Assembly (NCBI GenBank): GCA_021803405.1
Contig: JAJZLO010000005.1
Coordinates: 1-19,551, forward strand
DNA: 19,551 bases
Source: Microcaldota archaeon
Lineage (GTDB): Archaea > Micrarchaeota > Micrarchaeia > Micrarchaeales > CABMGC01
Direction: 5' to 3'
Below the pieces are notes generated by a model that ran no database searches, was not told the origin of the DNA, and saw only the letters and a program-made list of their open reading frames with translations. Both the position numbers and the translations under genes were made by a program. Shown in pieces: positions 2,669 through 19,551 of the stretch. Each line of letters opens with the position of its first letter. The stretch's first letter is position 1.

Positions 2669-5038
2669 TTAAGAAAACATATCTTTTAGAGAGTCGATAT
2701 CGGCTAATTTAAGATAATTTAAGTATAATGCCATACGCAACTTGTTTGTTTCGTCATTATACTGATTGTCCAGTTTATCCTTAAATGAAAGTCTTATTTC
2801 CTTGTTTAAAAATATGATTATGTTTTTTTCTTCGGCATTTATCTTAATGTCTCTCACTCCTGCGATCTCAGAAAAAATAAAAAGCTTGAAGTTTTTATCC
2901 CTTACCGTAGCTATTATGTCTGCATCTGATGACATATCTAAATCGGTAAATGGTATTGCATGAGAAACGAAAAAGTCACGGAGCTTTCTAAATATTACAA
3001 GATACTCCACATCGTGTTTTGATTTGTTAATCCACTCAGTAGGCAGGTAATACTCGTCTAAGGATTCCAACTTTTTATTTGACGCTAATTTATATAGAAT
3101 TTTTCTGGTATTTTGAAGTGTTATAGATATTGGCATGTTGTTCTCGCGTATATTAGAGCTTATGCCTGCTTTTATTTCTTCAGGAGTTAAAGGCATGTAC
3201 TGCCATTTATATTTAAAATTTAGTATATCGAAGATAGATATTATCTGATCTTGTTTTACTGTTATTTCCTGTTTTTTTATTGGAGGTATTTCAGGTATGT
3301 CTATATAATAATCTTCACGGTTTGGAGGTTTTAGAACAACATTCAATAAAAGTATCAAGAACGCAGCAACTCCGAACTCTATATACAAAGATGGTATTCC
3401 AGGAGGCGCAGCGTAATAAGAATACAGAGTATAATTAACATTTATCAATGAGATATTGAAGCGTTGATATCCATAATTAAGAACCGTTCCTTTTGGAACT
3501 TTGTATTCTATATTGCCATTATTAATGGTTCCTTGTTGAGGATACTCGCCATTTACAGTTATAGTATATGGCATGTTTGAAAGTCCCTGATTATCGCTTA
3601 ATATTTTAAAGAAGAATGTGCCGTTTTGGAAATCAGGTGAGGGAAGCGTTATGTTAAGATATGGAGTATAAAATATTGCACTGCCATGAGATATGTTATT
3701 TATATCTATAAGAGATGCAAGATAATATCCACCCGTAGGCACATCCAATGTACCGTACTTTACTATCGAGTATGAAGTATTGAAAAAGTTCAATGGAAAA
3801 CCATATATTGATTTTAATGAACCGTTGTAGGCTACTATACTAAAGGCCTTATTTGTTGAGAACTGGCTTATTGAAACACTGACAGGAACTTGATCACCAT
3901 AACCAACTACGCCAGGAACATTAAGAGTTGCAGTATTATTATAAACTATATGGAATGGTAATTCGTAGTTTTGATATGTATGTTCATTGCTACTATTTAT
4001 CAAAATTAAAGGATATGACGCATTCAGAAGAGAGGTTGCATTGGAGGTAAAATTTACAGATTTTTGAGTCGTAAATAGAAACTTATTCCCAGATAATGGG
4101 GAGGAGCTTGCAGGCTTAGATATATTAAAACTGCCCTTTGCAAGTATATTTATCCAGAACCTTAGAAAAACTGCCCTAGATAAGTCATAAGATAATGCGG
4201 AAGAGTTTTCCCAGCCTGCGGTAGGGTAATTGCTAAATGAGACAACCGTACCATTCTCAATATTCGTATATGATATTGCTCCAAAGGAGGTTCCATTTAA
4301 AAGCATAAATGTAGGTTTGTCAAAGAAAAATGAATTGGTAGAGGTTATATTTTTATCCGAAAATGTTGCCAAGCTCACGTTATAAAGTGTAGATGTTGTT
4401 TTATTATTTGTAAATAAGATTTGGCCATTTTCTATAATTCTTGAAAAGTTTTGCCCTACATAGATTATAGTATCTTTTTCATTTAGTAATTGTATTAAAT
4501 TTTTATTTTTACGTGAGTTTGAAAAGCCAGAGTATGGTACCAGATCTGCAGGTAAAAGCCCAGTAGGGAGTATAACTATAGAATCTGGAGCTATGTTACT
4601 GGTATTTAAAATACTTACAACTTGGAAACTTGAAGAATTAAGCAGCAGTCCATACTTAGAAAGATCAGAGGTCAGATTCCCCTCTATCGCGGCAATATTA
4701 AAACAATCAAAGCATGAATAAATTGGATTTAAAAGATAAATCTTCATTATTGGATTTCTTTGGAATACCTCGAGGTTTATTGAAGCGTTGGTCGCATTTT
4801 TAATGTTGTATTTTATAAATGAATAAACTGCAAGCTGATTTGAGTAGTTATATGAAGCAATACCGGCCTTGAAGATTGAGATGTTTGTGGATATTGTACC
4901 GTTTTCTATGTATACGGGTTTTATATTAGAAAGAAGCCCATTTACATAAAAATAAAGAAAAATAATAAACATAGATATAAGCACGGCTAATACGGAGCTT
5001 ATTATTAAAATCTTTTTTTTTGAAACCATTAATACCAT
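2669..5038 (-). CDS. Large membrane protein: two TM segments flanking a ~510-residue ectodomain, plus cytoplasmic C-terminal domain
   Basis: The 789-residue protein has one transmembrane helix at about 10-34, a long extracytoplasmic region to about 545, a second helix at about 545-567 (core AFLILLLNVVL) and a 220-residue hydrophilic C-terminal domain that should be cytoplasmic. The ectodomain is dense in Asn-X-Ser/Thr sequons and aromatic/beta-strand patterns, suggesting a glycosylated multi-domain beta-rich surface. Its only two cysteines form a CFDC pair at 109-112. Residues around 150-300 alternate strand and helix in a way that could be a degenerate Rossmann/GATase-like domain; the following part looks Ig-like. 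I do not recognise the family. The start is ATG 5038, with Met4 as alternative, only 3 nt after the 48-residue gene, so it belongs to the operon starting at 5915. A role as the outward- or partner-facing component of the machine is inference. Confidence 0.85.
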   Translation of the reverse strand: MVLMVSKKKILIISSVLAVLISMFIIFLYFYVNGLLSNIKPVYIENGTISTNISIFKAGIASYNYSNQLAVYSFIKYNIKNATNASINLEVFQRNPIMKIYLLNPIYSCFDCFNIAAIEGNLTSDLSKYGLLLNSSSFQVVSILNTSNIAPDSIVILPTGLLPADLVPYSGFSNSRKNKNLIQLLNEKDTIIYVGQNFSRIIENGQILFTNNKTTSTLYNVSLATFSDKNITSTNSFFFDKPTFMLLNGTSFGAISYTNIENGTVVSFSNYPTAGWENSSALSYDLSRAVFLRFWINILAKGSFNISKPASSSPLSGNKFLFTTQKSVNFTSNATSLLNASYPLILINSSNEHTYQNYELPFHIVYNNTATLNVPGVVGYGDQVPVSVSISQFSTNKAFSIVAYNGSLKSIYGFPLNFFNTSYSIVKYGTLDVPTGGYYLASLIDINNISHGSAIFYTPYLNITLPSPDFQNGTFFFKILSDNQGLSNMPYTITVNGEYPQQGTINNGNIEYKVPKGTVLNYGYQRFNISLINVNYTLYSYYAAPPGIPSLYIEFGVAAFLILLLNVVLKPPNREDYYIDIPEIPPIKKQEITVKQDQIISIFDILNFKYKWQYMPLTPEEIKAGISSNIRENNMPISITLQNTRKILYKLASNKKLESLDEYYLPTEWINKSKHDVEYLVIFRKLRDFFVSHAIPFTDLDMSSDADIIATVRDKNFKLFIFSEIAGVRDIKINAEEKNIIIFLNKEIRLSFKDKLDNQYNDETNKLRMALYLNYLKLADIDSLKDMFS

Positions 5039-5041
5039 CGA

Positions 5042-5188
5042 TCATATCTGTTGTTTCTTTAAAAAATGTTTGTCCACAAATGACTGGACCGAACGAGATA
5101 TAACGTTAGTATTGCTCTTTGCACTTTTGATAACTCTATAAGAGCGTATGTTATTGAACTTTTTATTTATATATACAAAATACTTCAT
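5042..5188 (-). CDS. Small basic 48-residue protein encoded between two operon genes
   Basis: The frame fits between its neighbours with almost no slack: the ATG at 5186-5188 is 1 nt after the upstream TAA, and the TGA at 5042-5044 is 3 nt before the next ATG. A GAGGT ribosome-binding site (complement of 5193-5197) sits 4 nt before the ATG, one of the best in the window. The product begins MKYFVYINKKFNNIRSYRVI and ends FVDKHFLKKQQI; it is Lys/Arg-rich, with a beta-like N-terminus and no membrane segment. The site placement and tight spacing argue that it is translated. I do not recognise it; it may be a small accessory subunit or nucleic-acid-binding peptide. Confidence 0.7.
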   Translation of the reverse strand: MKYFVYINKKFNNIRSYRVIKSAKSNTNVISRSVQSFVDKHFLKKQQI

Positions 5189-5189
5189 G

Positions 5190-5915
5190 TTAACCTCTTA
5201 GTTCAATATATCCTTTAGACACCATCTTGTCAAGTATTTCTTCCACTCTTGGAGACGTAAGACTGTAGGTTTTGGCGAACTCGTCTACATCTATGCTGCT
5301 GCCATGAACGTTTATCCAGTCCTCAACCATTGACATTAAAGACTCGTCAGAGTATTTTTGTAGTTTGCTTAAGCTATCTTTTAATTTTTTATTTTCTTCA
5401 AGTAAATCTGCCGTTTGAATAGAAAGATTTCTGTTTGATGCTAAAAGTTCTATGTTAAGCCTCTTTATGGCGCGGTACTCGCTAAGCAATGAGTCGTATT
5501 TATTGAAAAGTACACTGTAGTTTTGCGACATTCCAGAAAGAAGCTTATCTAGCGTAGAGTCCACATATTGCAAGAACGCCTGCTTATCTATATCGAAAAG
5601 ATCATTTATACTGGAAAGAAACGATGCCGTATTACGCAGTACATAAGACCTCCTTAACGTCTCGCTGGTATCGTTAGGTATAGAGTAGGTTATCTCAATT
5701 GAATCGTTGGTTATATTAAAAATATAGAAAAGATACGGTTGTTTTTTGATATTTCTGCTCTCTATAACTGCTATTGTTGCAAAATCGGTAGATGCGGAAC
5801 TTACATAGAATGGTGCTTTAGAAACTCTATCAACAATACCTTGAAACGTACCTAGGAGTTTGCCATTAATATTTAATTTCTCGACCTTTGGTGCAAGAAT
5901 GCTTTCTTCAGCCAA
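5190..5915 (-). CDS. Coiled-coil protein with C-terminal winged helix-turn-helix
   Basis: The 241-residue soluble protein has an alpha/beta N-terminal part (about 1-115), a coiled coil at about 125-190 (SLLSEYRAIKRLNIELLASN region and following KKLKDSLSKLQK) and a C-terminal winged-helix pattern at about 192-241: helix MVEDWINVHG, then VDEFAKTYSLTSPRVEEIL, then KMVSKGYIEL. The family is unknown to me. The start is a TTG (5913-5915): no ATG is available nearby, and a good TATA box centred about 31 nt upstream would place transcription start within a few bases of it. It heads an operon with the 48-residue and 789-residue genes. It could be a local transcription regulator or, because it travels with the machine, a structural or docking subunit that uses a winged helix for protein contact. 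Confidence 0.8.
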   Translation of the reverse strand: MAEESILAPKVEKLNINGKLLGTFQGIVDRVSKAPFYVSSASTDFATIAVIESRNIKKQPYLFYIFNITNDSIEITYSIPNDTSETLRRSYVLRNTASFLSSINDLFDIDKQAFLQYVDSTLDKLLSGMSQNYSVLFNKYDSLLSEYRAIKRLNIELLASNRNLSIQTADLLEENKKLKDSLSKLQKYSDESLMSMVEDWINVHGSSIDVDEFAKTYSLTSPRVEEILDKMVSKGYIELRG

Positions 5916-5940
5916 AATACCACAGTAATAGCTAAGTCTT

Positions 5941-5953
5941 GAATATATTTATT
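5941..5953 (-). promoter_or_regulatory. TATA box for the 5915-2669 operon
   Basis: On the complement this reads AATAAATATATTC. Its centre (about 5946) is roughly 31 nt before the TTG start, predicting a leader of only about 5 nt. It supports both a separate transcription unit and the TTG start. The remainder of the gap up to 6089 shows no gene or convincing element. Confidence 0.5.
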
Positions 5954-6089
5954 GCTTGCGTTTTTGTATGTGTCGTTTTTTTCTGTTATTTTTCAGTAAT
6001 TATTCCGTTAATATATGAAATTGACGACATATTGCATACTTTAACTTCTTTGTTTTATAGCTTCTTTTTAATAGTATATCAATAGCATG

Positions 6090-6509
6090 TTATTTTGAGA
6101 TTTTCTTTTTCTCTTTTACTGCGTTTGATGTTATTGCAGAATTATTTTTAGGCTGTTTTATTTTCAACTCTGGAGTATAATTAAGGAACGATATTAGATA
6201 TAAAAAGAGTAATATCAAAATAGAGAGCCCGAAGGTCGGCAGGCTAGGAGCTATTAATACTGAAAATATTACAAAAAGAAGCCCCAATCCGACATAAAGG
6301 CGTTGCCTAGATATATATCGTTTCCTATTTTTCATATATGTTTCATAGCACTCCTTTGATACAACAAGCCTGTTGTTTTTTTCTGTTTTGAAAAGCTTTT
6401 TCTTTATGTATCTTATTGTACGAATTACGTTATCTATCTTTATTTCTATACCATCTGCTTCTTTACCGCAGATAATGCAATAGCTTTTTTGTTTTTCTTT
6501 TATTGCCAT
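6090..6509 (-). CDS. Small membrane protein with N-terminal CxxC (zinc-site-like) domain
   Basis: The 139-residue protein has a cytoplasmic N-terminal domain with cysteines at 11, 14 (YCIICGKEADG) and 54 (SKECYETY), then two transmembrane helices at about 71-88 and 92-110, and a basic tail. CIICGK resembles a zinc knuckle, but only three cysteines and no histidine are present, so either the site uses another ligand, is shared between subunits, or is degenerate. Many Lys/Arg residues flank the cysteines (KNRKRYISRQR before the first helix). The ATG directly follows the TAA of the upstream gene (no spacer). I do not recognise a family; location at the end of the ATPase operon suggests an accessory membrane subunit. 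Confidence 0.78.
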   Translation of the reverse strand: MAIKEKQKSYCIICGKEADGIEIKIDNVIRTIRYIKKKLFKTEKNNRLVVSKECYETYMKNRKRYISRQRLYVGLGLLFVIFSVLIAPSLPTFGLSILILLFLYLISFLNYTPELKIKQPKNNSAITSNAVKEKKKISK

Positions 6510-6815
6510 TTACTCAACCTTTAACTCGGCTACCTTTCCAAAAGCAGCCTCTATTTTTTCCTCGTCTAGTGCGTTGAAGATCTCAACTATCCTAGCATCA
6601 TCAATGCCTATTCTCCTAAAGATATTTTCTATGTCAAATGGTTTTAGACCAAGTTTCTCTAACATGCCAACGAATGCTATTGCATCAACATGCCTGTGAG
6701 ATTTTTCTATAATTCCAAGCATAGCCTCTATGTTTCCAGGGCTTATGCCCAAGGAGGATAACATTTTTTTAATATCTATTTTGCTTATTACAAAGGTTTT
6801 TTGCACCAAAGCCAT
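6510..6815 (-). CDS. Small helical protein sharing a domain with the ATPase C-terminal tail
   Basis: The 101-residue, all-helical soluble protein aligns without gaps with the C-terminal tail of the adjacent ATPase: residues 23-76 here against 440-493 there, with 15 of 54 identical by my count, including RHVD, a Phe four residues later, and RxIGIxD. It also repeats internally: MLSSLGISPGNIEAML and MLEKLGLKPFDIENIF are 33 residues apart with a shared M-L-x2-L-G-x2-P-x2-I-E pattern. A tandem helix-hairpin repeat is likely. It begins 8 nt after the ATPase stop and ends flush with the next gene. It may bind the ATPase through its tail-like domain or compete with it; that role is inference. Confidence 0.82.
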   Translation of the reverse strand: MALVQKTFVISKIDIKKMLSSLGISPGNIEAMLGIIEKSHRHVDAIAFVGMLEKLGLKPFDIENIFRRIGIDDARIVEIFNALDEEKIEAAFGKVAELKVE

Positions 6816-6823
6816 ATACTCAC

Positions 6824-8332
6824 TTATGTAGTTATATAGGACATAATCCTAGAGATAATTGTATCTGTAATACCTATTGAACGTAAAAAGGATATAAGAG
6901 CAGTTTTGTTTATTCCAGTAGCTAAGGATATTCTTGCGAACTCGCGTATATCTACATGCCTGCCTTGCTCGCCCATCTTCTTTAGTATTGTCTGTATGGC
7001 CTCAGAGTTAAATCCAGTTTCTATGAGTTTTGAAGTTATTGCCATTTTATCAAAAGAGTAATCTTTTTTGATTTGTACATCGCCAAGCTCCTTCTCAGTT
7101 AGTATATCAGATGTGAAAACAGAGTATGTATCAAGAGGCAGCTCACCTACAATTCTATCTACCAAAAAGATGTTTGGAAATCTTACACCCGTATTAAAGG
7201 CCATATCTATTGCCGCTTGACCTACACCCAACTTGCTTATCTCGCTTCGTATAAAATCAGAAAAATTTAAAGAACCTTGAAGATAATTCATGAACTTCTC
7301 GAACCTTATCCTAAGCATAAAAGTAGTACCTACGTTTGAGAATATTGCTTCGTTTACATCAGTAGGATTTTGTGATGCCACTATTAGACCGAAACTGTAC
7401 TTTCTTCCCTCCCTTATTATTGTAACTGCGTCGCTTCTTTCATCGCTAGCTACCTTCCATGCTTCATCAAGTACAACCAAGGTTTTAAGACCTGCTGAAG
7501 CACTCCATGTTTCAAGGCGCATCTTCTCCTTTAATGTTTGAAGAATAAAAAGAGCGGCCATTGCCCTAAACCTTTCATCAGGAAGGCTAGATAGATCAAG
7601 ATCTATTAGCCCTGATGAGGTAAGCTTTCCTATATCTATTGTGCTTTTGTTTGCAAAGTAATCCTCACCTTCTCGTGAAAACTGCCTTAGTCTATATATT
7701 GCGTTCTCAAGCTCTGCAGGATAAGAATATGTGCCTTCTTGAAGTTTTTCATCTAAGAGTTTAGTCACATCCTTGAGCGTTGGAGGCTCCTTTCCAGGAG
7801 GAGGTGGAGCTGCAAGAGGAAACCCAAGATTTAGGTATGCCTGTTCTATTGCTTCTGCAGTAAGTCGCCTCTGTTCTGGATATAATGCTATGTCAGTAAG
7901 TATATCTAAGGAGTTCATTATCTGCTTTGCGCGATCTATAGGCTTCATTCCAGACAGATCCATTATATTAAGATAATCTCCTTTAGAAAGAGCTACAACC
8001 TTTCCGCCACTTTGTTTTACCCATGAAATATACTCTCCAGCCCAGTCTATTATTATTGCATTTGTATTCCAGATATAACTAGCTCTTGCTAGGAAGGTCT
8101 TTACAAAAAAACTTTTTCCTGCCCCTGTTATTCCGACAACTGAGATATGGGGATTGGTTATGTTTGAAAATGTCCAGGTAAAAGGTATCTTAAAAATCTT
8201 GGTAGTCCCTATAAAAATTGAGTTGGTAGGATCATTTAGGAGGTACTCTGGAGGAGGCTCTGGAGGCCTGCTTAAAAATATCCTTTTTGATATTTCATTG
8301 CTCATTAAAGTTTGAATTCTTATAAGGGTCAT
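6824..8332 (-). CDS. VirB4/HerA-class ATPase, likely motor of a T4SS/Ced-like machine
   Basis: The 502-residue P-loop ATPase belongs to the VirB4/TraC/HerA-FtsK group. Walker A is GITGAGKS at 67-74, preceded by the typical NPHISVV strand; IIIDWAGEY at 93-101 matches the post-Walker-A acidic motif of HerA-like motors; Walker B is LVVLDEAWK with Asp289/Glu290; IVASQNPTDV is the following sensor strand; the C-terminal FPNIFLVDRI matches the family ending. Walker A lies close to the N-terminus, so the VirB4 N-terminal domain is absent here and appears to be supplied by the two upstream genes. Residues about 425-502 are an extra helical tail shared with the next gene. No membrane segment is present. 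It lies 69 nt downstream of its neighbour with its own TATA-like region. HerA of DNA repair is the main alternative, disfavoured by context (no NurA). Confidence 0.88.
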   Translation of the reverse strand: MTLIRIQTLMSNEISKRIFLSRPPEPPPEYLLNDPTNSIFIGTTKIFKIPFTWTFSNITNPHISVVGITGAGKSFFVKTFLARASYIWNTNAIIIDWAGEYISWVKQSGGKVVALSKGDYLNIMDLSGMKPIDRAKQIMNSLDILTDIALYPEQRRLTAEAIEQAYLNLGFPLAAPPPPGKEPPTLKDVTKLLDEKLQEGTYSYPAELENAIYRLRQFSREGEDYFANKSTIDIGKLTSSGLIDLDLSSLPDERFRAMAALFILQTLKEKMRLETWSASAGLKTLVVLDEAWKVASDERSDAVTIIREGRKYSFGLIVASQNPTDVNEAIFSNVGTTFMLRIRFEKFMNYLQGSLNFSDFIRSEISKLGVGQAAIDMAFNTGVRFPNIFLVDRIVGELPLDTYSVFTSDILTEKELGDVQIKKDYSFDKMAITSKLIETGFNSEAIQTILKKMGEQGRHVDIREFARISLATGINKTALISFLRSIGITDTIISRIMSYITT

Positions 8333-8356
8333 GTAATCTCTTTTCTAATTTAAATA

Positions 8357-8374
8357 TGAATATAAATATTTAAA
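8357..8374 (-). promoter_or_regulatory. Probable TATA region for the ATPase operon
   Basis: The complement reads TTTAAATATTTATATTCA in a 69-nt gap. The ATG at 8332 lies about 30 nt from the box centre, predicting a short or absent leader. The CGCC just upstream could serve as BRE-like sequence. It suggests that ATPase, 101-residue and 139-residue genes can be transcribed separately from the upstream pair. Confidence 0.42.
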
Positions 8375-8401
8375 GGCGTGTGTTTTTAATTTATGTTTTT
8401 C

Positions 8402-9226
8402 CTATTTTTGATGATTGAAGAGCTTTTCCATTATGCTAGGATCAAAAAGAGAGTAATTTAATTTATGCAGTGTGTGTATCTCTCTCCCAGCAACCCTAAG
8501 GATGTTTAAATCAAAGGTGTGAAAAACCGTCTCTAGCCTATTGAGCTGGCTTGTTAAAGCATCAGTTGCCTCCTTTTCACTTATGCCTACTGCCGTTGTT
8601 TCAAGATACATTATAGTGTTTAGCGGAAGTTCTCCAGAGGACATCCTATCTATCTTTGCCTGAAGTACACTTACCTTTCTTTGAAGTTCTGTAAGAGTCA
8701 TTTGATTTGGATTCGAAGAGTTTGATTCTCTTGATATTTGAAACTCTAGAAATCCTCTATCGCCTTCTAAATCCTCCCTATACTTTTGCACATCACGGGC
8801 ATTGGTTATCACATTGAACTTAAATGGAAAATCAACATTCATTACTATTCTTTCCCACTTTTCAGGGGCAAGAATCATTTCTTGGTCATCAGATGACTCT
8901 ATGCCTTCTTCCCTAAATACATAATTATATAGATTAGCAGTTAGATAACCTGTCGCATAGTATATCCCGTTAGTATATTTTATTACACGGTTTTGCTCTT
9001 TTGGACAGTAGTATTCTTTTGAGAGTTGTATTTTTATCCCCAATAGACTTGTTACAACAGGAAATATTAGAAAGTCAACGTAATTTATTAAAAGTATAAG
9101 TACTATTGCAATAACCGAAAGCACGCCTATTATAATGCCGATTGCTCCAAGGCTTGAAGCGCTTATCAGTAATACAAACGCGGGTATGCAGGAAATTCCA
9201 AGATACATTACGGTCTGTTCATCCAT
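8402..9226 (-). CDS. Membrane-anchored VirB4 N-terminal-domain-like protein, copy 2
   Basis: The 274-residue protein has two transmembrane helices within about 8-60, then a soluble domain. It shares a colinear pattern with the upstream gene: N-x-V/I...NG-x2-A-T-G-Y (NGIYYATGYL), a central strand with FNVITNARDVQKYREDL, a coiled-coil stretch (LTELQRKVSVLQAKI), and a final YLETTAVGISEKEATDAL...LNRLETVF...LRVAG block. The last block resembles the end of the VirB4/TraC N-terminal domain, where a strand, a long helix of paired acidic/Ala residues and a second strand precede the motor. Cytoplasmic side is presumed because neighbouring ATPase lacks this domain. Start ATG 9226 has a strong GAGG at 9234-9237 overlapping the upstream stop. 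Homology to VirB4-N is inferred, not tested. Confidence 0.82.
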   Translation of the reverse strand: MDEQTVMYLGISCIPAFVLLISASSLGAIGIIIGVLSVIAIVLILLINYVDFLIFPVVTSLLGIKIQLSKEYYCPKEQNRVIKYTNGIYYATGYLTANLYNYVFREEGIESSDDQEMILAPEKWERIVMNVDFPFKFNVITNARDVQKYREDLEGDRGFLEFQISRESNSSNPNQMTLTELQRKVSVLQAKIDRMSSGELPLNTIMYLETTAVGISEKEATDALTSQLNRLETVFHTFDLNILRVAGREIHTLHKLNYSLFDPSIMEKLFNHQK

Positions 9227-9233
9227 CTTAAAA

Positions 9234-9237
9234 CCTC
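9234..9237 (-). promoter_or_regulatory. Shine-Dalgarno site overlapping the upstream stop codon
   Basis: The complement reads TGAGGTTTTAAGATG: the GAGG overlaps the TGA stop of the upstream gene and lies 7 nt before the ATG at 9226, suggesting translational coupling of the two related proteins. Confidence 0.6.
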
Positions 9238-10099
9238 ATATGCCCTCTTCTATGCTTTTTTGTCGTATCATCTCATTTACGGTCTCCACAGGTATCATAT
9301 AGTTGGGCTCTATCAAAGAAAGAAGTTCTTCGCCCTCAGTTATGTATGCCGATACTCCAAGAGCAGCGCTAATTCCGGCTGCAAGTTCCTCAGCTCTTTG
9401 ATGAACAATGCTGGTTGCTTCTTCCTCATTTTCTCCATTTGCGCTGACCATATAATATGTAACTAAACCTTGAGACTTTGAAGCACTTATGTTTGATATT
9501 AAATTTTCCCACATTGTAAGCTCTCCTTTTAACCTGTTTATCATTTCTGGTTTTTGAGGAACTTCTGCCTCGGCTTCCCTTAAGCGTTCTGCGGTGTCAT
9601 CTAATTTTGATCTTATTTTTGAGATATCTTCATCTTTATTTACGACCAGCATCTCAGAGGATATCTTTGTGGTATTCTTAGACAACGTTATAACCCTGCT
9701 AAAGGTTCTACCAAAATCAAGCTTCTCTGAATCGGTCATCTCTGTAGAAGATTTATAAAGAGGTATTTTAACATAAGCTGAAGCAATTGTTCCATTCTCT
9801 CCTCTTAAAACTATTGAGTTGCCCGATGGAGAAAGAATAAACATCTCTCCATTATCAAGAGTTATTGTCCTATTCTTCATCTTGAAAGCAGGTATGTATA
9901 AATATGTATAATATTTAGAAGAAAATCCTATTACTGAAAAAATAAGCGAGAGTATAGCAAAGATTATAGCGAGTATCGCATTGGTCATTGAAAGGGACAA
10001 TACAGCTAGCACAACACTTATACCTATGAATATTATAAAGATAAGCATATCTATTTTTATTGCCACTTCTACACCAATATTTAATACATAATAATTCAA
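9236..10099 (-). CDS. Membrane-anchored VirB4 N-terminal-domain-like protein, copy 1
   Basis: The 287-residue frame has two transmembrane helices at about 18-37 and 40-62, then a soluble domain related to the next gene: NSIVLRGENGTIASAYVKI, FSRVITLSKNTTKISSEM, a predicted coiled coil around 165-200 (KLDDTAERLREAEAEV), and VTYYMVSANGENEEEATSI followed by a helix and strand ending in a short helical tail. The two products are thus divergent paralogs, with two-TM anchors like VirB3/PrgI-type subunits fused to a VirB4-N-like domain. The start is uncertain: the longest frame begins with TTG at 10099, but a GTG at 10064-10066 (residue 12) has GGTG five bases upstream and gives a more usual N-terminus, MAIKIDMLIF. 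Function in the machine is inferred from context. Confidence 0.8.
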   Translation of the reverse strand: MNYYVLNIGVEVAIKIDMLIFIIFIGISVVLAVLSLSMTNAILAIIFAILSLIFSVIGFSSKYYTYLYIPAFKMKNRTITLDNGEMFILSPSGNSIVLRGENGTIASAYVKIPLYKSSTEMTDSEKLDFGRTFSRVITLSKNTTKISSEMLVVNKDEDISKIRSKLDDTAERLREAEAEVPQKPEMINRLKGELTMWENLISNISASKSQGLVTYYMVSANGENEEEATSIVHQRAEELAAGISAALGVSAYITEGEELLSLIEPNYMIPVETVNEMIRQKSIEEGI

Positions 10100-10126
10100 T
10101 TATATTATACTTTCTCTTTGCATACC

Positions 10127-11351: not shown

Positions 11352-12458
11352 TCACAAAAGACTTAAGAAAAGCTGGCCAAAATCAAATCTCTCTCCTAGA
11401 GCGGTTGAAAAGTCCGATACAAAGGTCGTAACTATAGTAAAGACAAGCATAGGAATTATTGTTATTCCAACAACTATAAGCCCTATATATATGAATAAAT
11501 ACTCAGGTATTAAATTTGCTGCAAAGCCTAATGGAGAGCTGCTACCTAGAGCAAAACCAGTTATCGCAGATACAAATGTTATTACAGGATTTGCAAGTGG
11601 TAGTATAAGTTGGGTAGCAGAAACGCCTGGACCTAAACCCAAGGTAAGAGCGTTTTGAACCGCATAATCCATAAAACCATAATTTAAACTTACTATTATA
11701 GGATATATAAAGCCAAGAGCTATTGCAAATGCCATAAGCCCATTGCCAAAGGTTCTTGTTATCTCAAATGAACGTGCCAGAAGCCCTATAGCCATGAAAA
11801 GAGCAAACAGTAATGGAGCCGCCGCAAGCAATAATAACTCTACCTGATTTAGAAGCGCAAAGTCATATAACAAAGGTATTGCAAAGCCATCGAACTTGTT
11901 TGTCTTTCCAAATGGATCAAGATCTGCCTGACCGGTATTTACTTGCAATTTAGGATTTAACGAACTAAAAAATGTAGTCCCTGAAAGACCCACATTTAAT
12001 GAAGCTCCAACCTTTGGAGTTATGGAAAATAGAAGTAATGCGTAATATAGGTATTGATTGAACTGTAAGGTGTATGTGTTAAATTGATTTAAGTCGCATA
12101 AGGATATAGCATATATGTTATTGACCAGCGGAGCTGAACATGCAACAGGAAGAAGTCCGGCGCTTGAGAAGTATGAAGAAGGATTGCTTGAACATATAAG
12201 CGTAGATACCGTTCCAAAAGCCATCACTAGAATAAGAGTTATTAAGAGATCTATTATTTTATTCTTGGTCCATGACCTCACATTTGATGCATTTATCAGT
12301 GGAGCTAATGCGTATATTAAGATAAGAACGCTCATACTTGCAAGTACGGCTATTACAACAACAGAGAACCATGCAGTATATGGAGAGCTCAAGAAGTAGC
12401 TTACGCTGCTTATACAGGAGTTCACAGTTGTCAAAACCAAATTGTCTATTATGCTCAT
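11352..12458 (-). CDS. P5: polytopic membrane protein, fifth of the tandem paralogs
   Basis: The 368-residue protein lacks a cleavable signal peptide; its short N-terminus, holding Cys15, is predicted outside. Membrane segments are at about 30-54, 70-90, 195-227, 238-262 and 318-350. The first paralog motif is weak (NVRSWTKNKIIDLLITLILV, no paired Glu); the second is ITRTFGNGLMAFAIALGFIYP with Arg235, where one Gly of the GG is replaced by Asn. Cysteines 15, 89, 107 and 121 are all predicted extracellular. The loop 150-195 is polar and Asn/Gly-rich. The start ATG overlaps the P4 stop as ATGA. It is the shortest and one of the more diverged members. Confidence 0.8.
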   Translation of the reverse strand: MSIIDNLVLTTVNSCISSVSYFLSSPYTAWFSVVVIAVLASMSVLILIYALAPLINASNVRSWTKNKIIDLLITLILVMAFGTVSTLICSSNPSSYFSSAGLLPVACSAPLVNNIYAISLCDLNQFNTYTLQFNQYLYYALLLFSITPKVGASLNVGLSGTTFFSSLNPKLQVNTGQADLDPFGKTNKFDGFAIPLLYDFALLNQVELLLLAAAPLLFALFMAIGLLARSFEITRTFGNGLMAFAIALGFIYPIIVSLNYGFMDYAVQNALTLGLGPGVSATQLILPLANPVITFVSAITGFALGSSSPLGFAANLIPEYLFIYIGLIVVGITIIPMLVFTIVTTFVSDFSTALGERFDFGQLFLSLL

Positions 12459-13705: not shown

Positions 13706-13714
13706 AATTAAACA

Positions 13715-15256
13715 CTACAATAATTTATTTAATCCGAGTATGCTTGTTGTACCACCTATAAGTCCTGATATGCCTATTGTTGCGGTAACTGCAATAAAGA
13801 TGTTTATTATAGGAAATATTATGCCCATCACTGACATTATTCCATAAAGATTTATAAGACTAAATATGGAGTTTATCGCATTCTGAGGAGCACAATAAAA
13901 GTATGGTATTGGAACTACCGTTGGAGTAGAACCAGTAAGTGAACCAAAAGCATTTACTATTCCTAAAATCAGACCATATCCTGGAAATGCATATGCACCT
14001 ATTACTAAAAGTTCCTGAGATACTAAACCGCCATGCGGCCAACATCCATCATTGTTTATTACATAAGCGGCCTTTGGAAACACAAAGAAATTTACTCCGC
14101 TTTGATCATAATTTATTATATTGTTATTTAGATCCTTTCCGATGAGCGAGAGTGTTGGGAAGGATGATGCGCCTATGGGTGATAGCGTATTAGAGGTAAA
14201 TGCCGTGTACTCCATCAAATAAATTATTGGAAATATTATAAGCGCTGCTAAAACAAAGGCTATTAGAAAACCTCCGGCCTTCCTGGTTATTGAAGATGCA
14301 CTCAGTATTATTCCAGCAGCTAAGATATAAGGCCATGAAAAAAGTATGAATAGTATGAAAAGTAACTGAATGAGGAACATATAGAAGGTTATCGTAGATT
14401 GATTATACAGTAATTCGGTAGCTTTTGATATTATATCATAACCGGCAAATGGTTTATATGAATAAACAACGGATAATGAAAGTGCATCGCCGCCTTCAAG
14501 GCATAGCTCTTGTGGATAACACAAACTGTCAGTTGCAGTGAATCCAGAAAGGAAACCGACATATGACCTGTATATATATAGGGCATTTAGATTTGAAGCT
14601 GATTGATTTGTCAGATTAGATATTATGACGTAAGTTGATGCTAGCCCATAATCTATATTAGAGGTTATATTAGTAGCGCCGGCGTTGTTTATTATCCCAG
14701 AGCAGATGTTATAAGTTGGTGAGTTTGCAGAAGGAGCGGTATTTACAAATGCTAGAGAGCTATCAAGATTAGGATTATTGAGTTGTTTGCATATTCCAGA
14801 GATAGATGATTTTGAAATTAACTGAGTGGAGTATGTTGCTTGACCAACATAGTTAAGAAGAAGTATTATAATCGCAACCAATACTGCGGTCATAATCACA
14901 CGCTCTAACTCAGTCTTTCCTCCAGAAACCATATTTTTATTATTTAGCACATATCCTAGCACAAAGTAAAGTATAACGACCGAAAAACTCACAAGTATAG
15001 CAAGCAGTATTATTGGAAACCAATTTCCAAACTGCGCTACTGGAGTAGCAAGAGCATAATTAATAGTAGTTAATGCCGAAGAAGAACTAGAACTTGATGT
15101 AGAAGTAGACGTAGAAGTTGATGTAGAAGTAGATGTAGAGGATGAAGAGGTTGTTGTAAAGGTTGATGCCGCAGATATATTAGATATGCAAAATAGCAGT
15201 ATAAATAACACTGAAAGAGAAATGATCTGTACTTTTATTTTTTTATTTTTAACCAT
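13715..15256 (-). CDS. P3: polytopic membrane protein with Ser/Thr stalk, third and largest of the tandem paralogs
   Basis: The 513-residue protein has a signal peptide (about 1-29), a 30-residue almost pure Ser/Thr stretch (31-60), then membrane segments at about 80-103, 117-136, 288-320, 328-350, 400-420 and 470-500. Motifs: KTELERVIMTAVLVAI (Glu116, Glu118) and ITRKAGGFLIAF followed by IIFP (Arg325). The extracellular insert between segments 2 and 3 is about 150 residues, longer than in the other members. Six cysteines in the mature protein (four in this insert, including an LCYPQELC pair, and two after segment 4) are predicted outside. The C-terminus GISGLIGGTTSILG follows the family ending. 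It starts 4 nt after the P2 stop, with GGTTGAG upstream. The Ser/Thr stalk may be O-glycosylated; that is inference. Confidence 0.82.
   Translation of the reverse strand: MVKNKKIKVQIISLSVLFILLFCISNISAASTFTTTSSSSTSTSTSTSTSTSTSSSSSSSALTTINYALATPVAQFGNWFPIILLAILVSFSVVILYFVLGYVLNNKNMVSGGKTELERVIMTAVLVAIIILLLNYVGQATYSTQLISKSSISGICKQLNNPNLDSSLAFVNTAPSANSPTYNICSGIINNAGATNITSNIDYGLASTYVIISNLTNQSASNLNALYIYRSYVGFLSGFTATDSLCYPQELCLEGGDALSLSVVYSYKPFAGYDIISKATELLYNQSTITFYMFLIQLLFILFILFSWPYILAAGIILSASSITRKAGGFLIAFVLAALIIFPIIYLMEYTAFTSNTLSPIGASSFPTLSLIGKDLNNNIINYDQSGVNFFVFPKAAYVINNDGCWPHGGLVSQELLVIGAYAFPGYGLILGIVNAFGSLTGSTPTVVPIPYFYCAPQNAINSIFSLINLYGIMSVMGIIFPIINIFIAVTATIGISGLIGGTTSILGLNKLL
15096..15137. 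repeat. Degenerate hexamer tandem repeat encoding the Ser/Thr run
   Basis: Seven tandem 6-bp units of GA(T/A/C)GT(A/T) type (GATGTA, GAAGTA, GACGTA, GAAGTT and variants) lie within P3 and encode alternating Thr-Ser on the complement. The units are diverged at third positions, which suggests selection for the protein sequence rather than recent slippage. A loss or gain of whole units would keep the frame. Confidence 0.7.
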
Positions 15257-15260
15257 AAAC

Positions 15261-16523
15261 TCAACCAGATTGCAACAACCCAGGTATAGTATTTAAAGCC
15301 TTATTTAGCCCTTGCGCAAATGCAAGAGTTATCATAAAATCTATTGCCACAAGCAAAACACCTTCGAAAAAGTACTCGGCTATCTTTGTGCTAAAGCTAT
15401 CTATTTGCAATGGCGTAGCTACAACACCCTCAAAAAGATTTGTCACAGCGGCGCCTACGCCGCCAGCATTTCCTGCAAGAGAACTATAGAAATTTACAGG
15501 TAAATTGAAGGATATGCCACCGTAGTTAAGGAAGCTTACCGTATTTTGTTTAAAAAGATCACCAAGAGGTATCTGCGCTATTTTATAATTACCAGTATAT
15601 TGGAGATATGGGTTACATACCTGGCCGGTATTTGTACAAAATAACCAGCTTATAACATATGAGTTCATACTTATTGTAAGGGGAAATACTATGTAAAAAG
15701 CTATCGCAAGTGCAAGTAGCGTATTTGAGACCTCTCGTATTTTAGGACCTAGAAATGAGAATGAACGCATTATTAAAGAAACAGGAACCACTAATGCAAA
15801 TGCAATTACACTTATTATAGGAAAGAGAAAGTATAGGACAAATAGTAAACCAAAGGTTATCACTATTATTATGCCATAAGACACATATACTCCAGCGTAG
15901 GCGTCGAAAAGTGATTCTACATCACCACTATTTGCCAATGTTATTCCAAAACCCGCAGTTACGCTGCTGCTTGGTTGTGATCCGCCTATAGTTGCTGCGC
16001 CGCTACCGCCACTTGTTCCTGAAGCTGCTGAGCCGGCACTGCCTATTGAAATTCCATGTATTCCACCTAATGCAGAGTTAAGAGAGCTGGTAACCTGATC
16101 TAAAAGTATAGAAACTATATTGCCATCTATTGAGAGGGTAATGCCCTGAAAGGTAAGATCAGTAACAAGGGAGGTACCTTTTACAAAAAGTAATGTCCCT
16201 ACATAGTACTCATCTGCTTGAAATAGGTTTTGATAATTGCTTTGCCCCGATAGCCCAGCCCCGACAGAACACGAAGCATATACTAAAGATATCAAGGTAA
16301 TGAAGATAAGCAGACTTATTATGCCTTCGCTTAATTCATAAATTATGGTATTTTTAATTTTTTTGGAGTTTTGTGATGGAAGCAGCGTACTTAAGCTATA
16401 AACTAGCGCACCTATTGAAAACATAGCTAGTATTACCATGGCATTTATCCAAATCCAGTTATTGGCATTTATATTACCAAGATTGCACGCAGTTTGGATT
16501 GTAGAAAAGATAAAGGATATCAT
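15261..16523 (-). CDS. P2: polytopic membrane protein with Gly/Ser-rich extracellular loop, second of the tandem paralogs
   Basis: The 420-residue protein has no cleavable signal; its short N-terminus with Cys13 is predicted outside. Membrane segments are at about 24-47, 64-83, 212-252, 265-292 and 388-410. Motifs are recognisable but diverged: KKIKNTIIYELSEGIISLLIF (Glu63, Glu66) and IMRSFSFLGPKIREVSNTLL followed by IVFP, with Arg263 but no GG. An extracellular Gly/Ser/Ala linker spans about 157-190. Cysteines at 13, 85, 296 and 303 match the P1/P4 pattern. The start overlaps the P1 stop by one base (TAATG). The missing GG may mark a different role from P1, P3, P4 and P6. Confidence 0.8.
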   Translation of the reverse strand: MISFIFSTIQTACNLGNINANNWIWINAMVILAMFSIGALVYSLSTLLPSQNSKKIKNTIIYELSEGIISLLIFITLISLVYASCSVGAGLSGQSNYQNLFQADEYYVGTLLFVKGTSLVTDLTFQGITLSIDGNIVSILLDQVTSSLNSALGGIHGISIGSAGSAASGTSGGSGAATIGGSQPSSSVTAGFGITLANSGDVESLFDAYAGVYVSYGIIIVITFGLLFVLYFLFPIISVIAFALVVPVSLIMRSFSFLGPKIREVSNTLLALAIAFYIVFPLTISMNSYVISWLFCTNTGQVCNPYLQYTGNYKIAQIPLGDLFKQNTVSFLNYGGISFNLPVNFYSSLAGNAGGVGAAVTNLFEGVVATPLQIDSFSTKIAEYFFEGVLLVAIDFMITLAFAQGLNKALNTIPGLLQSG

Positions 16524-17779
16524 TAAACCAGCTTCAACTTTTTGCTTACAGAAAGACTTATGCTGCCTCCTAGAAGCCTCGCTATATTATCGGTAATGGT
16601 ATAGGTTATAACAAGATCAAACATGAAAACTATGAAGATCTGAAACAGTATGTAAAGCGTATTCTGCAGTATATAATTTAACGAAGGATATATTGAAAAA
16701 AGAGTTGAAAATGCTAACGTAAATGAGTTAATAGTTCCTGAGGTTATACTGCCACCAGCTACTCCTGATGTTTCAAAGTATACAAAGTTAGAAAGTCCAT
16801 TGCATATAGAAGAAACAAGCCCTAAACTTGAACACCCAGTAGAAAGAGGTACCTCTCCATGTACTGAAAGATAGCCGTAAAAAAAGTTAGAGACCGGAGC
16901 ATTGAATAAAACAAGTACAGAAGGCCAGATAAGAGCTATGCCTATGCCAAATGCTATAAGAGTACCGCCTATGCCTCTTACAAAAGGCAGCGCACGAAAT
17001 ATTATTCCCAATGGAATAAGGACCCACAAACCTAGAATCTCAAATATGGGAAGGACAGATATCTGTACAGTTATAATGTTTACCGCTGGAAAGTATATGT
17101 AATTGAATAAATCGTTCATCATTGAAGTTGTAAACTGCGAACCTGACACAAAATCTGTTTGAAGTATGTTGTTTTTAAGCAAAGAAAAGCTTACACCTGA
17201 TTTTACAACTGGGAGTATTAAACCTAACGGACCAGGTATAGGAACAGGTGGTATTGGAAGACCGCCCCATGAGATTAAAAGTCCCTTAAAAATTCCATCG
17301 GCAAGAGATAAACTAGTGAGGCTCTCTATACTTTGCATTAGAACATTATTAACACCGCAAAGATACACCTCGCTATTATATAAAAGATTACCAGTATTAG
17401 TAGCAAAGTTACCTATAGAAGCCCCGGTAAATGAAACTGCTATTCCACTTACGAATGATATTGCTGCATATATTATCACTATTATTAAAATAGATTTTAC
17501 AAGCTCTCTGTATTCATTGCCTAGAAAAGAACCAATTTTAGTCTCAGGGAATATCTTACTGACTATATATATTATGCTTATAAAAACGAATGAAACAAGT
17601 AATGAAACTGCGGATAGGAATATGGCCATGCTTAGAGCAATGCTCGAGAATGATGCTACAGTAGTATATACGTTATTATTCAACAGTGTTGAACTGCATA
17701 AAATAGGAGAGGCATAAGTAACCCCAAGCATTAACATAAATAATAATAGTGATAAACGCAGATTCCTTAATTTATGCAT
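16523..17779 (-). CDS. P1: polytopic membrane protein, first of the tandem paralogs
   Basis: The 418-residue protein has a signal peptide (1-23, TYA-S) and membrane segments at about 46-74, 93-112, 228-262, 272-295 and 370-395. Motifs: IGSFLGNEYRELVKSILII (Glu89, Glu92) and IFRALPFVRGIGGTLIAF followed by IWP (Arg268). A Pro-rich extracellular loop IPPVPIPGPLG lies at 176-186. Cysteines at 28, 141, 316 and 326 are predicted outside. The C-terminal NIARLLGGSISLSVSKK is the family ending. It begins the operon and appears leaderless: a TATA box is centred 26 nt before the ATG. Similar polytopic subunits in T4SS (VirB6/TrbL) and in the archaeal Ced system (CedA) sit in the membrane next to the VirB4-class ATPase; correspondence here is inferred from layout. 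Confidence 0.82.
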   Translation of the reverse strand: MHKLRNLRLSLLLFMLMLGVTYASPILCSSTLLNNNVYTTVASFSSIALSMAIFLSAVSLLVSFVFISIIYIVSKIFPETKIGSFLGNEYRELVKSILIIVIIYAAISFVSGIAVSFTGASIGNFATNTGNLLYNSEVYLCGVNNVLMQSIESLTSLSLADGIFKGLLISWGGLPIPPVPIPGPLGLILPVVKSGVSFSLLKNNILQTDFVSGSQFTTSMMNDLFNYIYFPAVNIITVQISVLPIFEILGLWVLIPLGIIFRALPFVRGIGGTLIAFGIGIALIWPSVLVLFNAPVSNFFYGYLSVHGEVPLSTGCSSLGLVSSICNGLSNFVYFETSGVAGGSITSGTINSFTLAFSTLFSIYPSLNYILQNTLYILFQIFIVFMFDLVITYTITDNIARLLGGSISLSVSKKLKLV

Positions 17780-17800
17780 GTGTTATTATTCTAATAGTAA

Positions 17801-17810
17801 TATTATAAAG
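17801..17810 (-). promoter_or_regulatory. TATA box for the six-paralog operon (leaderless)
   Basis: The complement reads CTTTATAATA; its centre (about 17805) is 26 nt before the A of the P1 ATG, exactly the archaeal spacing to a transcription start, so the mRNA would begin at or next to the start codon. No Shine-Dalgarno site precedes P1. The rest of the 89-nt gap to 17868 is featureless. Confidence 0.55.
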
Positions 17811-17868
17811 ATACTGTTTTTTATTAGAAGTGAAAATGCCAAGAAGTTTTAGTATGAAAATTGATTTT

Positions 17869-19065
17869 TTACTCTTCTTTAGTCTTACCTTCCCCTCTAC
17901 CAAAATTAAATGATATGAGCCCTAATTCTTCAGGATTTTCTTCGGCTTTTTCATTGCCTATAGTTAATTTATAACCATATCTCTTATATTTTAAAGCAGC
18001 TTTTGGTTCTGTTATTTTTTTAATAAGCTCATTGGTCTGTAGATCCTTTCTTGTATCAAATAAGGTATTATATATCTTAGTAAAGTTGTTTAACATCTGG
18101 TCATCAAGCTTTTTCTGCTCTCCTGCACGGATATTTTTATCTTGTATACCACTTATCTCGTGAAGACGTTTTTTGTATATGTCTTGTTGCCTATTTATCT
18201 CATCAAAAGAGTCCTCGAGTTTCTTCAATCTCCTTGAAAAAAATGCATCTGCTCCGTTAAGCTCAGCTATTTTGATTGATTTCTGAGTTTTTGATAGCAC
18301 ATTTGAAGAAACAGTATCTTTCTTTAACTTTGAAAGTTTTTGCCTTGCTATTGCTATAGATGCCATAGTATCCTCAAGCACAGTGCTACTTTGATCTGAA
18401 GAGTACCTAGAGGGATACTTTTCTTCAACCTTTTTTTTATAGAAAAGTTCCTTTGTTTTCTTTGGAAGTTTTCCCTTAGCTACCATATTCACAAAACCAG
18501 CACTTGCAAGAATAGATCCCCTCACTAATGGAGAGGTCAACGAAGTGGCTTTGCCAAGACCAGATATAAACTGATTTCCAATTGTTCTTTTTGAGTTTGG
18601 AGTCTCTGTAGATGTAGCATTTTTGTTAGGTATGCTAGCTGCTCCTGAACCTTTATTTCCCTCTGCACTACGCTCTTGTGAAAATATAGCTGCTCCTGAT
18701 TTGTCGGTGGTTTTTATCTGCGCTGCTCCAGCAACCAAACCAGTCTTAAAGTATGTTTGAAAGTCCTTATTTATTGCCTCTTGTTTTTTCTTTTCGTCTT
18801 CTTTGATTTTATTTTTTGTAACGCTAAGTGGTTTTTGCCTTGGTTTTAGATATGACTTCTTCAGGGTTTTATAAGCAAGAGTACCTTTACCTTTTGGACC
18901 TAGACCAAAAAAAGTTCCTATTCCGAAAAGATTAAAAAAACTAAATCCTCTGCTCAATCCAGCAGCTGCGCCTATAAATATGATTATTATAAGTACAGGA
19001 ACAAGGGCGTTTATTGCACCTACTGAAAGTATTATTGAATAAAGAATAGGAAGTATAAAGGCCAT
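17869..19065 (-). CDS. Membrane-anchored cytoplasmic protein with disordered and coiled-coil regions
   Basis: The 398-residue protein starts with one hydrophobic hairpin or two helices (about 3-37), then a Gly-rich turn and a long basic, cysteine-free hydrophilic region that should be cytoplasmic. Residues about 85-175 are low-complexity (Lys, Ser, Ala, Gly) and probably disordered; about 228-335 contain long amphipathic helices (SRRLKKLEDSFDEI, YKKRLHEIS, KKLDDQMLNNF) typical of a coiled coil; the tail is acidic. I do not recognise a family. Absence of cysteines contrasts with the cysteine-bearing outside parts of P1-P6. It is located directly upstream of the paralog operon, so a scaffold linking the membrane complex to the ATPase is a reasonable but untested idea. 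Start ATG 19065 follows a TATA-like box by about 35 nt. Confidence 0.8.
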   Translation of the reverse strand: MAFILPILYSIILSVGAINALVPVLIIIIFIGAAAGLSRGFSFFNLFGIGTFFGLGPKGKGTLAYKTLKKSYLKPRQKPLSVTKNKIKEDEKKKQEAINKDFQTYFKTGLVAGAAQIKTTDKSGAAIFSQERSAEGNKGSGAASIPNKNATSTETPNSKRTIGNQFISGLGKATSLTSPLVRGSILASAGFVNMVAKGKLPKKTKELFYKKKVEEKYPSRYSSDQSSTVLEDTMASIAIARQKLSKLKKDTVSSNVLSKTQKSIKIAELNGADAFFSRRLKKLEDSFDEINRQQDIYKKRLHEISGIQDKNIRAGEQKKLDDQMLNNFTKIYNTLFDTRKDLQTNELIKKITEPKAALKYKRYGYKLTIGNEKAEENPEELGLISFNFGRGEGKTKEE

Positions 19066-19093
19066 TGCATCATATATCTCTTAAACTGCAACT

Positions 19094-19107
19094 AATATAT
19101 TTATTTA
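19094..19107 (-). promoter_or_regulatory. Probable TATA region for the 19065-17869 gene
   Basis: The complement reads TAAATAAATATATT within the 66-nt gap; a start of transcription near 19074 would give a leader of about 9 nt before the ATG. Confidence 0.4.
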
Positions 19108-19131
19108 CTAATTTAGCTATTTTATACTTGA

Positions 19132-19551
19132 TCATGTATTTTGGAACACTATAGCTGCAAAAGACATAGGAGGAGCGCAACCTGCACTAAGACCAGAAAC
19201 GGTATAAGTTCCAGGAGCTTGATTTTGATATAAATCATAATAGTTAAGATCTTCTTCTACATCTTGTTGAAACAGTAAAATATCTCCTCCGGAAGGTACG
19301 CTTGGATTACTCCAGTTACTACAAGCGTTACTTCCAGATATTGCAATTACAACTGTGTTTATACTGTTTGTGACTGTGTACTCCAACTGTGGATTGTTTG
19401 ATGTAGATGAATATGATGCTGCATAGATTGTGTTAGAGGTTGTTGGTATACTTACCCCATAAGCGCCGACTATTGATGCTTGTCCTGAAGGAGATGTTGC
19501 ACTGCATATGTTTCCGGATTGAAGCCCTATAGAAGTATATAATGTATTTGT
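19132..19551 (-). CDS. Partial gene: secreted/surface beta-rich protein (C-terminal 139 residues)
   Basis: The frame is open from the right edge of the window to a stop at 19132-19134, so the true N-terminus lies outside; the internal TTG at 19384-19386 is not needed as a start. The visible part is rich in Ser, Thr, Asn and Gly, nearly lacks Lys/Arg, has three cysteines (in NICSAT, NACSNW, AGCAPP) and alternating beta-strand patterns (TVVIAISGS, GTYTVSGL, FAAIVFQ). It has no transmembrane helix in this part. The composition is that of an extracellular archaeal protein, such as a pilin-like or adhesin domain. Its position ahead of the membrane genes suggests an external component of the same machine, but a pilin identity needs the missing N-terminus. 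Confidence 0.75.
   Translation of the reverse strand, partial: TNTLYTSIGLQSGNICSATSPSGQASIVGAYGVSIPTTSNTIYAASYSSTSNNPQLEYTVTNSINTVVIAISGSNACSNWSNPSVPSGGDILLFQQDVEEDLNYYDLYQNQAPGTYTVSGLSAGCAPPMSFAAIVFQNT

Follow-up and report, generated by a model that had tools for sequence, protein, structure and literature searches.

Among the transfer machines described in Archaea, the closest to the locus reported here are Ced of the Sulfolobales (CedA, CedA1, CedB, CedD and CedE) and Ted of the Thermoproteales. Both combine a VirB4-like ATPase, a VirB6-like polytopic protein and a VirB2-like pilin, and the accessible parts of two descriptions attribute to them only homologues of VirB2, VirB4 and VirB6, Ted being called the most simplified (PMC11868833, PMC9905601). 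CedB and CedD are reported to match different parts of the VirB4 N-terminal domain (N-domain), and CedE to be a paralogue of CedA (PMC11868833). We analysed a stretch of 19551 bases from a Microcaldota archaeon (assembly GCA_021803405.1, contig JAJZLO010000005.1, positions 1 to 19,551; hereafter the window), whose minus-strand operon encodes a likewise archaeal candidate machine of the type IV secretion system (T4SS) kind. It has six VirB6-like paralogues (P1 to P6) where Ced and Ted have one or two, its N-domain lies on separate anchored proteins (B287 and B274) instead of being fused to the motor ATPase, and it has four extra conserved proteins, S101, ZnTM, W241 and ECTO. Compared by description, CedA and the P proteins agree only in their architecture of 6-7 transmembrane (TM) segments.

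Four further systems invite comparison. The rvh system of the host-dependent Rickettsiales is reported to hold five divergent VirB6 duplicates, considered vertically inherited, and a duplicated VirB4 (PMC2653234). It differs, in the accessible text of that report, in having five VirB6 rather than six (VirB6e being missing in R. massiliae and Anaplasmataceae), in a bacterial set from which only VirB5 is missing, and in two VirB4 copies that are both of normal large size. The VirB/D4 T4SS of R388, in which VirB6 is described as a homopentamer and VirB3 as hexameric (PMC9259494), provides the best fold matches of B274 (TrwK/VirB4) and P5 (TrwI/VirB6); unlike in R388, Pfam recognised no VirB8-10, VirB11 or coupling protein in the window locus. 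In Patescibacteria, which are also host-dependent ultrasmall cells, a reduced T4SS is described as widespread, with VirB4 in 2,417 of 3,035 assemblies and with pilin arrays (PMC12102498), but it is bacterial and FATA-related, VirD4 homologues are present in 2,918 genomes, and the available part of the paper mentions no VirB6 set of six. Finally, the nanohaloarchaeal SPEARE/VirB4 loci, also from DPANN archaea, encode VirB4/TraG-like ATPases proposed to serve host interaction (PMC10266531); there a giant Ig-repeat protein bears the ATPase domain, and the available description gives no P sextet. Since no fixed-order, whole-copied set of six VirB6-like proteins was found in the accessible texts on Ced, Ted, Rickettsia and R388 or elsewhere in the open PMC literature searched, the novelty of the locus is this fixed-order sextet, copied whole, within T4SS-like machines. 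The means by which DPANN archaea and their hosts exchange molecules have long been in question. Imaging has shown ARMAN and Thermoplasmatales cells joined by cytoplasmic bridges and pili, many connections being credited to Thermoplasmatales, and the available text assigns no Micrarchaeal machine to them (PMC4110969). The operon is a nearly phylum-wide candidate exchange machine with a gene list.

The number of P genes is constant, at six in every one of the 49 countable arrays (24 + 13 + 1 + 11). Genome contigs were scanned with the ATPase alignment, which gave 153 encoding loci, of which the best 80 were kept; gene families were assigned to each locus with iterated profiles. These loci reach 10 kb and many are cut by locus ends. 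No P gene is in reach in 20 of them; in 36 the locus end truncates the array; and in the other 24 the upstream end of the array is reached, with only 319-1184 bases beyond it. Six P genes are present in 24 of these 24, 22 times directly from the open reading frame (ORF) caller and twice (L015 and L066, apparently five) when frames were read stop to stop, because the caller retains the longest ORF and may thereby mask a gene that an antisense ORF overlaps. The 36 cut arrays comprise 15 with six genes, 19 with fewer and two (L020 and L019) in which split or fragment ORFs raise the number to 7 or 8. For five loci with P1, extended upstream sequence revealed no earlier P gene, nor did the region (L142) upstream of L105, a locus with six P and two pilins directly upstream. 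In another Micrarchaeota lineage the P arrays lie away from the ATPase, and 13 out of 13 such arrays, from six genomes, hold six P; for this count, two irregular genes were each scored as a single gene, namely the fourth of L130, which is interrupted, and the third of L134, which is apparently frameshifted. These two irregularities may reflect decay or assembly error. Three more P-bearing contigs of the same six genomes (G089 C8, G040 C122 and G040 C200) end within their P runs and stay out of the count.

A second sample of nine further genomes yielded 17 P-bearing stretches, which were searched with profiles derived from the distant sextets of the first sample and from the 80 loci. Here again, the 11 uncut arrays out of 11 hold six P. 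Moreover, 65 of their 66 genes match the profile of their own position best, in order, the third gene of L153 being the exception. The L159 array is preceded directly by two pilins and followed directly by B287, B274 and the ATPase, while that of L162 (G192) stands apart from its genome's ATPase. The remaining six stretches hold P runs that break off at a contig end, and nine arrays or runs cut in this way were left out (L143-L145, L151, L154-L158); one of them, L158, has four genes whose best profiles are out of clean order. The second sample strengthens the six-gene rule and has no bearing on pore stoichiometry.

The order of the P genes is likewise constant. Trees were quick IQ-TREE runs with SH-aLRT (Shimodaira-Hasegawa-like approximate likelihood ratio test) support only. 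With 14 loci (the window and 13 hand-picked ones that have full arrays), the genes of each position group in a clade of their own (SH-aLRT 99-100). A wider tree held nine single-copy P and 17 sextets, i.e. 11 of the 13 distant arrays (L130 and L134, with one interrupted gene each, were left out), the window, L016, L028, L049, L077 and L105. Grouping by position then requires 7 changes for 7 groups (minimum 6), against a mean of 74.9 in shuffles, none of 200 being as low as 7. Positions 2, 5 and 6 are single groups (88, 98 and 56), and positions 1, 3 and 4 fall in two pieces each. Because the arrays of the distant lineage group by position, the six P paralogues most likely arose before the sampled lineages split, and sextets would later have been copied whole. 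Three P sets were found in G035, and at least two in G089, G067, G004, G017, G040, G008, G030 and G108. Whole six-gene arrays away from the ATPase (L129-L141, L146-L150, L152, L153, L160-L162) occur two or three times in many of the genomes concerned.

The original prediction had described six tandem polytopic membrane proteins. Each of P1-P6 indeed has 6-7 hydrophobic windows, and the six are in addition paralogues of one another: hhalign gives 96.8-99.5% for all 15 pairs, where unrelated pairs give 0.1-5.8% (all hhalign values are for single pairs). The first hairpin of P2 resembles pilins (hhalign 86.8% to the pilin profile), and the shared P motif is missing from P2 (0/47). The pilin likeness of the N-termini of P1 and P3-P6 is weak (0.2-36%), that of P2 alone being convincing.

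The motor is a VirB4/HerA-class ATPase, as predicted, with Pfam matches above cut-off to DUF87 (2.7e-14), AAA_10 (2.1e-11) and the TraG P-loop (5.2e-8). Its matches to VirB4-like models of NCBIfam (3.7e-17) do not reach the curated cut-offs, and its best NCBIfam model is CedD (3.6e-20), with 72 bits against a cut-off of 600. Two membrane-anchored proteins resembling VirB4 N-domains had also been announced. The model of B274 folds as a VirB4 N-domain behind membrane helices, R388 TrwK/VirB4 being the best fold match (the R388 chains matched by B274 and P5 were identified as VirB4 and VirB6 from entry titles and chain lengths), and B287 is its paralogue (hhalign 97.7% to B274). Because B274 carries the N-domain fold in its model and the ATPase is without it, we read VirB4 as split, with the motor apart from two predicted membrane-anchored N-domain subunits. 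Two ATPase genes (L121 and L122), of 1054 and 1025 amino acids (aa), have in-frame insertions of about 500 aa, one near Walker B and the other at Walker A; the L122 insertion ends in HN-S, an intein-type motif, and both insertions are putatively intein-like.

In each of the three genomes inspected (G001, G002 and G003), the large locus is accompanied by a second and smaller one, which has two copies in G002. Its first gene encodes a small protein (125-134 aa); single P and B genes, a gene for an ATPase of 353-386 aa and one for a W-like protein follow. The proteins of the two loci are related, with hhalign values of 97.9-99.6% for P, 97.9-98.0% for B (97.9% for B287), 99.9% for the ATPase and 95.9% for W, the homologue of W241 adjoining the ATPase of the simple locus. 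Four single P of other genomes also went into the single-copy P profile. Among the small first protein and its relatives, 9 of 18 match TrbC/VirB2 and 9 of 18 match T4SS_pilin (E<=0.01), the most of any family; six pilin candidates taken singly fall below curated cut-offs. With a limit of E<=1, the pilin profile has a single PDB match, to the R388 pilin TrwL (0.026). Six upstream regions were fetched; five of them hold P1, with matches to this profile ahead of it in four, and one (L127) has no P gene. No pilin was found in the window, nor ahead of P1 in G002 (L125), a close relative.

We also examined how the operon is inherited. Conserved co-occurrence of the ATPase with its neighbours, for which a synteny survey had been suggested, extends over the 80 loci: adjacency was counted for B274-ATPase in 73, B287-B274 in 68, W241-ECTO in 65, ECTO-TopoVI-B in 57 and an uninterrupted P1 to P6 in 38. 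They include Candidatus Micrarchaeum sp. A_DKE (L049), represented by its complete chromosome. In the 301 genomes of the phylum of A_DKE, taken as Micrarchaeota since L049 lies in G001, the ATPase profile matches 277, of which 251 better than 1e-50 (a hand count: 277 minus 26 weaker matches), and the single-copy-P profile finds a P-type match, single or sextet, in 263. Mirror-tree distances of the ATPase correlate with those of the flanking TopoVI-B (r 0.84, 56 loci) and KH genes (0.85, 49), as with those of B274 (0.88, 71), B287 (0.87, 68), W241 (0.88, 65), ECTO (0.88, 62), P4 (0.83, 53) and P6 (0.78, 57); none of 1000 permutations reached any of these values. The correlations with TopoVI-B and KH therefore indicate a fixed chromosomal machine, inherited vertically and jointly. 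Four ATPase copies followed by S101 and ZnTM have no recognised P genes upstream in their locus (L009, L010, L011, L012) and may belong to a system that is secondary or has diverged. G004, G017, G056, G067 and G080 each contain a further ATPase copy of the large type, with a weaker profile match.

Taken together, we read the operon as a chromosomally fixed T4SS-like (Ced/Ted-type) transfer machine of Micrarchaeota, with a probability of about 0.66. Its supported parts are the predicted split VirB4 motor with B287 and B274, the six fixed-order and probably ancient P, the putative pilins upstream in relatives, and the failure to find a relaxase or coupling ATPase, neither of which had been seen in the window. 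The coupling ATPase PF02534 was found in 0 of 10 related genomes (the same search matched 5 of 14 controls) and the relaxase PF03432 in 0 of 10 (1 of 14 controls; other relaxase families were not searched), which is like Ced and unlike conjugation. The earlier idea of a related but distinctly built T4SS/Ced-like apparatus thus largely holds. Results on the P proteins point both ways. The best PDB matches of the P5 model are VirB6 proteins (R388 TrwI/VirB6), which speaks for this assignment, at a Foldseek E of 0.54 that is not significant alone; against it, a PDB profile search with P5 returned only ABC transporters, which we take as similarity of helical composition; and none of 52 P sequences matched Pfam TrbL/VirB6. 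In Pfam, NCBIfam and PHROGs, no credible family emerged for the P and B proteins tested in each, and 8 single-copy P gave no CedA-type match in NCBIfam. A protein search with the single-copy P alignment returned 93 proteins, without a CedA link; the few organism names given were all Micrarchaeota-type or Marsarchaeota. For the proposed fold match of P1-P6 to VirB6 or CedA, the P5 model suggests a tentative one to VirB6.

In the machine that we propose, one copy of each P would form a closed six-part membrane pore, with an ATPase hexamer beneath it, coupled via B287 and B274; a short pilus or contact structure, pilin- or ECTO-based, may top it, and ECTO and W241 may aid contact or gating. Its function is most likely contact-dependent macromolecule transfer with host or neighbouring cells. 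Such a machine would be useful because these organisms depend on others, the synthesis of DNA, RNA and lipids being reported as incomplete in Candidatus Micrarchaeum harzensis (PMC8975820). A bacterial parallel is the Patescibacterium reported to need its T4SS to grow as an epibiont (PMC12102498). Uptake of DNA or other nucleic acid is our tentative choice over export of protein effectors, which appears less likely; import as in Ced is somewhat favoured because no coupling ATPase was found. The chances are evenly balanced that the pore is obligately hetero-hexameric, i.e. an asymmetric channel of six non-interchangeable subunits, one each and in fixed order, matched to a hexameric VirB4 motor. 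The invariant sextet predicts a six-part VirB6-like ring and so bears on T4SS evolution, on the mismatch in R388 between pentameric VirB6 and hexameric VirB3, and on the set of five VirB6 paralogues in Rickettsia. If true, the channel would be unlike the homopentameric VirB6 of R388, built before the sampled lineages of the phylum split and later copied as six-gene sets.

The rival that survives best is an injector of protein effectors into the host cell, with the sextet as export pore and ECTO docking the host. The ATPase is nearly phylum-wide in a DPANN group whose cultured members are described as living with hosts (PMC8975820), a T4SS is reported to be essential for epibiotic growth of a Patescibacterium (PMC12102498), and the operon encodes a large ectodomain protein. 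However, the 0 of 10 genomes with PF02534 and the absence of any effector gene recognised by Pfam in the block make it unlikely. A Ced/Ted-like importer of DNA for homologous-recombination repair between Micrarchaeal cells, with no host contact, is more doubtful. CedD is the nearest NCBIfam model of the ATPase, a pilin, VirB6-like and VirB4-like set occurs without a coupling ATPase or relaxase found, and Ced itself is described with paralogous CedA/CedE and CedB/CedD (PMC11868833). Yet the minimal locus in the same genomes (L101-L104) is more Ced-like and could already do this job, and Pfam found neither NurA nor Rad50 among the window proteins. The six P might also be six separate channels or transporters on one motor, the T4SS likeness being limited to the ATPase and the N-domain. 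The evidence linking P to VirB6 is statistically weak and sextets lie apart from the ATPase in one lineage as well as in G192, but number and order are constant in 49 counted arrays, sextets duplicate whole, P genes adjoin VirB4-N-like genes and the simple locus has a single P next to its pilin, B and ATPase; we consider this option improbable. A mobile conjugative element in the chromosome, to which the conjugation-related families of the ATPase and pilins could point, is rejected on the chromosomal flank that recurs in relatives (ECTO-TopoVI-B, 57 of 80 loci), on distances that track those of housekeeping genes, on PF03432 and PF02534 being found in none of the 10 genomes, and on the failure to find any relative in viral contigs. 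A HerA repair or defence locus was likewise discarded: the ATPase scores to HerA models (3e-20), but no partner gene accompanies it, NurA being found by Pfam in none of 18 window proteins. PADLOC, run on seven window proteins, gave only a weak match of W241 to LmuC (0.0016) and one to HTH_VI (0.0045).

The transfer machine that we favour lies in a minus-strand block transcribed in the order CC398, P1, P2, P3, P4, P5, P6, B287, B274, ATPase, S101, ZnTM, W241 and ECTO, and convergent with two plus-strand genes, KH and topoisomerase VI-B (Table 1). The minus-strand genes between 2669 and 19551 are present as first described.

Table 1. Features of the window and of the minimal loci (positions in bases of the window, except for the minimal loci)
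Feature	Description	Position	Strand	Evidence
KH	KH-domain PNO1/KRR1-like protein; flank, outside the machine	421..912	+	
TopoVI-B	topoisomerase VI subunit B; flank, outside the machine	909..2564	+	PF09239 3.1e-49
ECTO	large presumed ectodomain between two hydrophobic windows	2669..5038	-	66/80 loci; windows at 10 and 551
W241	cytoplasmic protein, putative coiled coil	5190..5915	-	67/80 loci
ZnTM	cysteine-motif protein, putatively Zn-binding, two hydrophobic windows	6090..6509	-	family in 62/80 loci
S101	free copy of the ATPase C-terminal helical domain	6510..6815	-	hhalign 98.6%, 77 columns
ATPase	VirB4/HerA-class motor without N-domain	6824..8332	-	Walker A GITGAGKS at residue 67, Walker B LVVLDE at 285
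B274	N-terminal hydrophobic helices and predicted VirB4 N-domain	8402..9226	-	structure model, fold comparison
B287	membrane hairpin and VirB4-N-like domain (by homology to B274)	9236..10099	-	adjoins B274 in 68/80 loci
P6	VirB6-like, 389 aa; of the six nearest to single-copy P	10178..11347	-	position 6 clade 100; hhalign 99.6%
P5	VirB6-like, 368 aa; the one modelled	11352..12458	-	fold comparison of P5 model
P4	VirB6-like, 416 aa	12455..13705	-	position 4 clade 100; hhalign 99.2%
P3	VirB6-like, 513 aa; longest of the window's six	13715..15256	-	position 3 clade 99; hhalign 97.9%
P2	VirB6-like, 420 aa	15261..16523	-	position 2 clade 99; hhalign 98.9% to single-copy P
P1	VirB6-like polytopic, 418 aa; first of the sextet	16523..17779	-	position 1 clade SH-aLRT 100; hhalign 99.1% to single-copy P profile
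CC398	one-TM basic protein, 398-aa coiled-coil gene; accessory	17869..19065	-	family in 16/80 loci, 1/7 upstream regions
ORF	open-ended, resembling a secreted surface protein	19132-19551	-	runs off window end
Minimal loci	Ced/Ted-like; three genomes that also have the large locus	L101:3657-8236, L102:3976-8498, L103:3690-7981, L104:991-5501		two copies in G002

The tight same-strand packing that had been reported holds from P1 to ZnTM, where spacing is operon-like: P1 and P2 overlap by 1 base, P4 and P5 by 4, and most other gaps are 0-9 bases, the widest being 78 (P6/B287) and 69 (B274/ATPase). It is looser ahead of W241 (174) and ECTO (151). The large ectodomain protein of the earlier description is ECTO. 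Its C-terminal part, of about 220 aa, was compared by hhalign with the small TM protein encoded in the simple locus, and homology between them gained no support (0.1%). Of the coiled-coil proteins placed in the machine, W241 belongs to a widespread family; CC398, present in 16 of 80 loci and in one of seven longer upstream regions, is therefore outside the conserved core. The secreted protein counted as a further part exists as an ORF, with no relative in the 80 loci or in the seven upstream regions; the former says little because the ORF lies beyond their 10-kb reach.

The window is Micrarchaeota chromosome, since the 80 closest ATPase loci are mostly labelled Micrarchaeon (73, with 5 Marsarchaeota, 1 'uncultured archaeon' and 1 'bacterium'). 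Its GC content is 33-39% per 1-kb step, and no tRNA was seen in it. In several relatives a six-TM protein of about 245 aa lies directly upstream of P1 (L123:2269-3003, L126:7657-8388, L128:6619-7368), where the window has CC398.

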